From Terriglobales bacterium (GTDB taxonomy: Bacteria > Acidobacteriota > Terriglobia > Terriglobales > Acidobacteriaceae), in NCBI GenBank assembly GCA_024281115.1, contig JAMXLI010000010.1:1-40007 (forward strand): 40,007 bases of DNA, written 5' to 3'. The notes below the pieces were generated by a model. The model was not told the origin of the DNA. It did not search any database and worked only from the letters and a program-made list of their open reading frames with translations. The translations under genes were made by a program, and so were the position numbers. Below are positions 34,527-37,055 of this stretch, one piece after another. Each line of letters starts with the position of its first letter. The stretch's first letter is position 1.

Positions 34527-35204
34527 TTACAGCCGTGTTTCAAGAACATCAATTTTTGGTGAAGCCGGAGAACGCGGCCGGGAAACGAATGGGTTGCCGG
34601 TCAGGAAATAGCGCAATGGCTGCTCCGCCGCCTTCGTAATGCCGATTCGTGGGCTGGCAGCGATTTCCCCGCAGCGGAAGCCGTCGTCCGCAATCCACAG
34701 GCCGGATGCGGGATCGGTTAAATGGATACCATTGTCGCGCTGTCGAGTAATTTCCAGCGCCTCGGCCGGGCGGCCGGGGCCGCTGCACACCAGCTTCAAG
34801 CGGGATTCGCGCGGATCCATGCCGCGCGCGCGCAGCATGGCGGAAATCCCCAGCACCGGCTGAAGAGCGCGAAACAGAACGCATCCAGCTTGCCCGGGTG
34901 GCTGGCAGGAAACGTTCAAGCAATAGTGATTGCCATAGATGAAGTAGACGTAAGCGCGACCGGGCGGGCCGAACAAAACCCGGTTGCGGTCCGTGGGCCC
35001 GGAAAAAGCATGCGCGGCCGCGTCCTCCACACCCAGGTAAGCTTCGACCTCGACAATCCTTCCAGCACGCAGGCGCACGCCCCGACCGCGCACCAGCAGC
35101 TTGCCCAATAGGTCCATGGCGACCCGGCGGGGATCTCGATCGAAAAACTTCAGCTCAACCGGCCGCCAAAGCTGAGGATTTGGCTTCACCATGGGGAACT
35201 GCAC
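34527..35204 (-). CDS. mpg: DNA-3-methyladenine glycosylase (AAG/MPG type)
   Basis: FDRDPRRVAMDLLGKLLVRG...GRIVEVEAYLGVEDAAAHAFSGPTDRNRVLFGPPGRAYVYFIYGNHYCLNVSC. GTG at 35204 or internal ATG at 35192. Confidence 0.94.
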   Translation of the reverse strand: MQFPMVKPNPQLWRPVELKFFDRDPRRVAMDLLGKLLVRGRGVRLRAGRIVEVEAYLGVEDAAAHAFSGPTDRNRVLFGPPGRAYVYFIYGNHYCLNVSCQPPGQAGCVLFRALQPVLGISAMLRARGMDPRESRLKLVCSGPGRPAEALEITRQRDNGIHLTDPASGLWIADDGFRCGEIAASPRIGITKAAEQPLRYFLTGNPFVSRPRSPASPKIDVLETRL

Positions 35205-35257: not shown

Positions 35258-35719
35258 CTACTTCTTCGCGGTGAGCGCCGCCAGCACTTCCTCCGCGTGT
35301 CCTTCCGCCTTGACCTTGGGAAAAATACGGGCAATCCGGCCATCGGCGCCTATCACGAACGTAGTGCGCTCGATACCCATAACTTTTCGGCCGTACATGT
35401 TCTTTTCCTTGATCACATCGAAAGCCGCGGCCACCTTCTTGTCCTCGTCGGAAAGCAGGGTGTAAGGCAACCCGTACTTTTCTTCGAACTTCTTCTGCTT
35501 GTCGGGAGGGTCAGCGGAAATACCCAGGACCACGGCCCCCGTTTTCTGCAGTCGCTTGTATGCGTCGCGGAACCCGCACGCCTCAATGGTTCAACCGGGG
35601 GTGTCCGCTTTAGGATAGAAGAAGAGGACCACGGTTTTGCCGCGGAACTCCTTCAGGGAGACTGGGTTTCCTTCCTGGTCCGGCAGGGTGAAGTCGGGCG
35701 CTTTCTCGTTCACGTCCAT
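35258..35719 (-). CDS. bcp: Thioredoxin-dependent peroxiredoxin (BCP/PrxQ), predicted selenoprotein with UGA-encoded Sec43
   Basis: Combined frame: MDVNEKAPDFTLPDQEGNPVSLKEFRGKTVVLFFYPKADTPG-U-TIEACGFRDAYKRLQKTGAVVLGISADPPDKQKKFEEKYGLPYTLLSDEDKKVAAAFDVIKEKNMYGRKVMGIERTTFVIGADGRIARIFPKVKAEGHAEEVLAALTAKK. One in-frame TGA at the catalytic Cys position; 153 aa total. Confidence 0.9.
35562..35581 (-). promoter_or_regulatory. Putative bacterial SECIS hairpin
   Basis: mRNA: UGA-ACCAUUGAG-GCGU GCGG GUU CCGC g ACGC. 8 bp in two helices, bulged G, apical GUU (GGUUC if the closing pair opens); hairpin starts 9 nt and loop starts 17 nt after the UGA. Confidence 0.75.
35591..35593 (-). other. In-frame UGA codon predicted to be decoded as selenocysteine
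   Basis: ...AAA GCG GAC ACC CCC GGT TGA ACC ATT GAG GCG TGC GGG TTC...; replaces the Cys codon of the TPGCT-x-x-x-C motif. Confidence 0.85.
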
Positions 35720-35759: not shown

Positions 35760-37055
35760 ATGGCCTGCGTCACGGGTGTGGCGTTGGTTGTGGCTCTTGC
35801 ATGGGGCGCCGCCGCCCAGAAGCAGAGCTCCGGGCCGCGCGCGCTGGCCGTGGTGCAGGCGGGCACGAATGGCATGGGGCGCCTGCTTCCAATAGCCATT
35901 CAGGTTGAAGGACGCTTCTACGATGCGGGTATTTACCGCGCCAGTCCGGTGCCCATGGCGCTCGAGCCGGGCACGGTGTATGAAATAACCCAGGCGGGCG
36001 AGTCGCTCGGGCTCTTTACCATCCGCATTCCGGCGGAAACCGCCAATGGCGCCTGGTCGGCCACGGGAAAATACGAGGACAAGCACGCGCTCGAGGCCGC
36101 GAAGGCAAAAGGCCCATCGATGACTGTAACGCCGCAAGGCACAAAGGCCGATGCGGAAGACCGGCCTGTGCTGCGGAAGAATCCGCGGAAGGACACCAAC
36201 ATCACCGCGCCGCCGAGCACCCCTGGGGCGACGGCGCCCAACACGGCGCCGCCACCAACTGCCACTTCGGGAAACAACCCGCCCCCTCCGCCGGGGAGCA
36301 CGGATACAGGCGCGGGCGGTCCGCACGCCGGGAGGAGTGGGCCACCCGCCGATGTGGAAGCCCAGGCGCCGGATCGCCCTATCCTGCACCGCGGCAAGCC
36401 CGAAACCGAGCACCCCGAAAGCGCCAAGTCATCCGCAGCAGAGGGCGTCAGCCCGGGGCCTCGGTCCGGATACAAGCCAAAGGTCACACCAGCCCGCCTG
36501 CTGCCGGCAGTGTCGGACGCGGACGGACCCGAGCCGCGCCCCTACTACTTTGTGCCCCATCCCGGCGAAGCAGCCGAGCTGCAAAATAAAGTGACGCAGA
36601 TGGCGCAAGAAGAGGTCGCCAGGTACGAGCGTGCCCGTCGGCCTTCGTTTGGGTCGGCGCAGATCACGCCGCAAGACTTCCGCATCTTCGACCTGGATTC
36701 AAGCAACCAGCCAGTGTTCGTGCTCACGGCAACAGCCCGGATAACCGAGCGGAATCCAGGCAGGCGCTCCGTGGGCAGCCGGGAGGCCGCCTCGACACCG
36801 TCCGAAGCGTTCCTGACCGTGGTGGCGCACGAGGACGTGTACGGCGAGCTGCAACCCATGTTTGCGTCTGTGACCGATCCCCAGCACCTGGACGAGTTCC
36901 CTCGCCTGCAACTGGTAGACGCGGTGGACGCGGACGGTGACGGGCGCGGCGAGCTGCTGTTCCAGGAGATCGGCGCCGGCGGCTCTGGCTGGGTCATCTA
37001 CAAGCCCGGGCCCGACAAGCTGGCCACCCTCTACGATAGTTTCAGCGGGCACTAG
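35760..37055 (+). CDS. Secreted hypothetical protein with Pro-rich linker and C-terminal globular domain
   Basis: MACVTGVALVVALAWGAAAQ signal-like N-terminus; long Pro/Ala/Thr-rich middle; YFVPHPGEAAELQNKVTQMAQEEVARYERAR... C-terminal domain. ORF could start at 35718. Confidence 0.75.
   Translation: MACVTGVALVVALAWGAAAQKQSSGPRALAVVQAGTNGMGRLLPIAIQVEGRFYDAGIYRASPVPMALEPGTVYEITQAGESLGLFTIRIPAETANGAWSATGKYEDKHALEAAKAKGPSMTVTPQGTKADAEDRPVLRKNPRKDTNITAPPSTPGATAPNTAPPPTATSGNNPPPPPGSTDTGAGGPHAGRSGPPADVEAQAPDRPILHRGKPETEHPESAKSSAAEGVSPGPRSGYKPKVTPARLLPAVSDADGPEPRPYYFVPHPGEAAELQNKVTQMAQEEVARYERARRPSFGSAQITPQDFRIFDLDSSNQPVFVLTATARITERNPGRRSVGSREAASTPSEAFLTVVAHEDVYGELQPMFASVTDPQHLDEFPRLQLVDAVDADGDGRGELLFQEIGAGGSGWVIYKPGPDKLATLYDSFSGH

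Follow-up and report, generated by a model that had tools for sequence, protein, structure and literature searches.

A Bcp/PrxQ peroxiredoxin gene with a predicted selenocysteine at its peroxidatic position in Acidobacteriota, and selenocysteine and cysteine forms among its relatives

Results

The peroxiredoxin gene and its reading frame

The window, the whole 40,007-nucleotide stretch of DNA analysed here, corresponds to contig C10 in an assembly of 3.58 Mb that is 98.9% complete with a contamination estimate of 5.03%. Its reverse strand carries a putative selenoprotein gene of the Bcp/PrxQ type and, downstream, a gene for a methylpurine-DNA glycosylase (MPG).

35258..35719, reverse strand: bcp/prxQ gene for a putative selenocysteine peroxiredoxin, 153 aa when read through one TGA
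35591..35593, reverse strand: TGA codon 43, predicted selenocysteine at the peroxidatic site within the motif PxxxTxxC/U, placed by the frame and by alignment to the TPGC cysteine in solved Bcp structures
35576..35578, reverse strand: TGC codon 48, putative resolving cysteine lying within the SECIS stem, from the sequence and its relatives
35562..35581, reverse strand: predicted SECIS hairpin, GCGUGCGG-GUU-CCGC(G)ACGC, from folding and comparison, with the apical GUU at 35573..35571, 17 nt past the UGA
34527..35204, reverse strand: MPG gene, downstream same-strand neighbour

The bcp frame (35719..35258) runs for 462 bases from an ATG to a TAG, and its sole internal stop is the TGA at residue 43; there are no frameshifts. 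With the TGA taken as selenocysteine (Sec, U), it translates to a 153-aa protein, MDVNEKAPDF...PKADTPGUTIEACGFRD...LTAKK. An open reading frame list gives it as two pieces, 35258..35533 and one ending at 35591. The latter is listed from an upstream in-frame ATG at 35899; the start of the family is the ATG at 35719, which a GGAG motif precedes. The match of the read-through protein to the Bcp/PrxQ type covers its whole length, with 167.4 bits over residues 3-152 against the NCBIfam equivalog PRK09437 (thioredoxin-dependent thiol peroxidase; cut-off 140) and 149.8 bits against Pfam AhpC-TSA. Residue 43 (PKADTPGU) aligns with the TPGC cysteine of the solved Bcp chains 5enu, 5iph and 5iox. Five residues further on, at the spacing of the atypical two-cysteine PrxQ enzymes, the protein has Cys48, at the resolving position of the two-cysteine PrxQ type as in E. 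coli Bcp. The solved chains 5enu and 5iph, unlike E. coli Bcp, have no cysteine at this position.

An earlier note on this DNA had proposed that the two same-frame pieces join into one complete BCP peroxiredoxin, that the TGA sits at the peroxidatic cysteine of the family motif (TPG-U-TIEAC), that the resolving cysteine is kept five residues on, and that nothing else interrupts the frame; all of this is confirmed by the frame, the domain matches and the alignment. An MPG homologue is also found near bcp in the relative G004, though not immediately adjacent. Rfam at gathering thresholds and ARAGORN returned no matches on the window itself. No Cys-type Bcp that might serve as a backup was seen in the window's genome, whose next-best peroxiredoxin matches share only about 34% identity.

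The selenocysteine machinery

The genome to which the window belongs encodes selA (567.8 bits), SelB (340 bits, the whole model covered), SelD (325 bits) and a tRNA-Sec (68.9 bits) that ARAGORN names tRNA-SeC with anticodon UCA. In genomes that lack selA, other RNA can reach about 51 bits with the tRNA-Sec model, so we trusted it only at about 63 bits or more. The selD gene (L015, G000:C141, reverse strand) itself has an in-frame Sec-TGA in its catalytic loop (KAAG-U-ASK), and a strong hairpin of -22.7 kcal/mol is predicted after it; selenocysteine-containing SelD is among the classic selenoproteins. G004 and G011 encode the SelB proteins closest to that of the window's genome and also hold the nearest Bcp genes, so that machinery and gene belong to one lineage. 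This kinship led us to reject contamination as the origin of the selenocysteine machinery. Named loci assign the lineage to Acidobacteriota, class Terriglobia.

Codon 43 among relatives

Codon 43 is TGA, TGC or TGT in the 188 distinct bcp genes that we collected from relatives. Of those with at least 60% identity, 64 carry TGA in an otherwise open frame and 101 carry TGC or TGT. Chance placement of the TGA is excluded, because of 153 codons it falls on the catalytic one, which is TGA or a cysteine codon in all of these related genes. By a strict search, selA is present in 60 of 63 genomes with a TGA gene and in 53 of 97 with a Cys gene (Fisher p 5e-9), and the three TGA genomes without selA carry SelB at 356 to 380 bits. 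Within this Acidobacteriota family we found no TGA form in a genome lacking both selA and selB.

Selenocysteine and cysteine alternate repeatedly within this one family, with at least 13 switches by parsimony, five of them forced by well-supported branches of a protein tree built without residues 43-57 from a short alignment with many open forks. Two of the Cys genes look like recent Sec-to-Cys reversions with relic SECIS elements, since the hairpin is retained in both and their genomes still have selA, selB and tRNA-Sec. One (L142) has TGC at codon 43, Ser at 48 and the same SECIS as its Sec neighbours, and the other (L041) has TGT at codon 43 and a single change in the element.

Two distant Sec-type bcp genes, L113 and L106, the latter from Anaeromyxobacter terrae outside Acidobacteriota, have TGA at the same codon; in L106 the GUU hairpin is absent in that register.

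The SECIS hairpin

The candidate bacterial SECIS hairpin comprises 20 nt beginning 9 nt past the TGA, GCGUGCGG-GUU-CCGCGACGC, and has a GUU loop on a stem of 8 bp that a single bulged base interrupts. With a spacing of 17 nt and a predicted energy of -10.0 kcal/mol it lies within published bSECIS limits (loop of 3-9 nt, G in the first two loop positions, spacing of 16-37 nt, MFE of -7.5 or below; PMC13188914). It folds only modestly better than shuffled sequences (z -1.28); the support for it is comparative and does not come from the single-sequence fold.

Among relatives, the apical loop reads GUU without exception in the 58 type-I Sec genes, but in only 26 of 96 Cys genes, the other 70 of which have CUU, AUU or UUU there. 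Third-position entropy across codons 47-54 is 0.41 in Sec genes versus 1.06 in Cys genes, a gap reached by none of 2000 label shuffles, and outside these codons it is equal (1.41 and 1.42, respectively). The synonymous sites of the SECIS are frozen only in the TGA forms. Stem changes that preserve pairing occur at C14-G29 in L057 and at A19-U23 in L045 and L182 (counting the T of TGA as 0), and in genes with TCC as codon 48 the stem partner is shifted, to 16-27 rather than 16-26 in the same numbering. An automatic test, a strict implementation of the bSECIS limits, passed 51 of 64 Sec genes and failed 13, versus 12 passes among 96 Cys genes.

The Sec-type bcp genes of one genus (L141, L169, L173, L177 and L180) do not have the usual GUU hairpin. 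For these five near-identical sequences, which show only one two-sided change, folding predicts a longer hairpin; this may be a SECIS of a second type, or the genes may stem from an independent Cys-to-Sec change.

The resolving cysteine

The resolving cysteine is absent in 24 of 64 Sec genes, replaced by Ser in 11 and Arg in 13, and in 2 of 101 Cys genes. The majority of the Sec proteins without it contain no other cysteine either. The association between the Sec form and a missing resolving cysteine gives a Fisher p of 9e-10, a value that counts related sequences and not independent events. Tree-based pairs on starred branches ran in the same direction, at about 2.5 to 0.3, with a median p of 0.5, in an underpowered test on few supported pairs.

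Discussion

Judging from sequence evidence of several kinds, the gene in the window almost certainly encodes a Bcp/PrxQ peroxiredoxin whose UGA codon 43 is decoded as selenocysteine. The earlier note had arrived at a selenocysteine peroxiredoxin from the window's letters, and the suggestion is borne out by the complete selA, selB, selC and selD set in the same genome, by the conservation of the TGA, or its replacement by TGC or TGT, at this column in relatives, and by the SECIS hairpin after the TGA. The decay of the frame among relatives, which the note had named as contrary evidence, was not seen, as TGA relatives carry otherwise intact frames.

The machinery and the RNA element are plain in the DNA, and from them we infer the decoding event: SelB carrying Sec-tRNA(Sec) would bind the hairpin that starts 9 nt past UGA 43, and the codon would be read as selenocysteine. 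By analogy with the known Sec-Prx and PrxQ families, the selenolate would then attack the peroxide, and the resulting selenenic acid may be resolved by Cys48 to a selenenylsulfide that is reduced by thioredoxin, as PrxQ chemistry suggests. An inactive fragment of 42 residues would be expected when selenium is lacking or the codon is not recoded.

It is possible to give that short product, or the truncation of translation itself, a regulatory role, with the UGA doubling as a selenium-controlled stop. Some truncated product is indeed expected, as one study puts in vivo UGA recoding efficiency at 30-40% (PMC4513850), but nothing in the sequence hints at a function for the 42-aa fragment, and we regard a regulatory role as improbable. 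A TGA read as another amino acid, as in a code with UGA for Trp, or passed by general readthrough, would leave the same open frame, which is all that a single sequence reveals. Against this, TGA is the true stop of the same gene in relatives such as L034 and L059, codon 43 is otherwise always Cys, and the complete machinery is present together with a SECIS; we consider such decoding very unlikely. Just as little probability attaches to a Cys-type bcp broken by a nonsense mutation or misread through a sequencing error, as ordinary annotation would have it from the single-base difference between TGA and TGC or TGT: the same TGA recurs in dozens of independent assemblies from different genera, the frame has not decayed, the SECIS synonymous sites are conserved only together with the TGA, and the TGA is limited to genomes with selA and/or selB. 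We therefore rejected pseudogene, sequencing error and general UGA recoding on the conserved TGA, the intact frames, the SECIS and the Sec machinery.

We hold with moderate confidence that, within this family, a peroxidatic selenocysteine makes the resolving cysteine less necessary, so that two-Cys enzymes have repeatedly turned into one-Sec enzymes, which an outside thiol must reduce directly. On the same footing, RNA structure and catalysis would constrain each other, because the resolving-Cys codon forms part of the SECIS stem, and the two Cys revertants with relic SECIS elements, one still with Ser at the resolving site, would belong to this history.

The kind of protein is already known. 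Lists published since 2005 include Sec-peroxiredoxins of COG1225 (Bcp) that have a TxxU motif: the Sargasso Sea set contains 43 such genes (PMC1088965), and they are found as table entries in later work as well (PMC9312934, PMC13188914). A 2006 survey counts 12 Prx selenoprotein genes in the genomes of that time, gives Acidobacteria three families and four selenoproteins, and tabulates zero Sec-to-Cys reversions for Prx, describing relic SECIS elements for other families (PMC1794560). The sources that these surveys name include marine metagenomes, Deltaproteobacteria, Clostridia and Symbiobacterium (PMC1088965, PMC1794560, PMC9312934). For Acidobacteriota selenoproteins, our full-text literature search turned up a single related paper, which presents a method and includes three known selenoprotein genes from Occallatibacter; it yielded no paper describing Sec-Bcp specifically for Acidobacteriota. 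Nor did we find a description of resolving-Cys loss in Sec forms, in a search that left subscription journals largely uncovered. The Sec/Cys alternation, the relic SECIS in at least two Cys genes and the loss of the resolving cysteine in Sec forms go beyond the papers that we found.

The window gene shares with the described Sec-Prx its COG, the TxxU motif, a peroxidatic Sec, widespread Cys homologues and a bSECIS just past the UGA. It differs in its host group and in the repeated resolving-Cys loss and apparent Sec-to-Cys reversions among its relatives. With Cys-type Bcp/PrxQ (solved chains 3gkn, 5iiz and 5enu) it has whole-length homology and the active-site motif PxxxTxxC in common, but it has predicted Sec in place of the peroxidatic Cys, and a UGA and putative SECIS in its mRNA. 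Sec peroxiredoxins named PrxU are known from Eubacterium acidaminophilum. PrxU (NF040737) is likewise an NCBIfam peroxiredoxin family but a different subfamily, against which the read-through protein scores 44.1 bits, below the curated cut-off of 270.

Ordinary gene callers split bcp into two fragments, so that this peroxide-reducing enzyme is easily overlooked in what is a widespread soil group. The family also offers a natural experiment on why cells use selenocysteine, as close relatives have either Sec or Cys at a single codon, some of them with the partner cysteine and some without it. This makes it possible to test directly what Sec brings, for example whether it protects against over-oxidation or makes a resolving thiol dispensable.

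The same genome holds a second peroxiredoxin-like gene with an in-frame TGA (L231, G000:C24:6600-7900; match at C24:6990-7394, forward strand), in the context AFTGG-U-TKEM. Its protein is longer and probably exported, and it is probably another selenoprotein. Many relatives have matches at 34-43% identity with one TGA.
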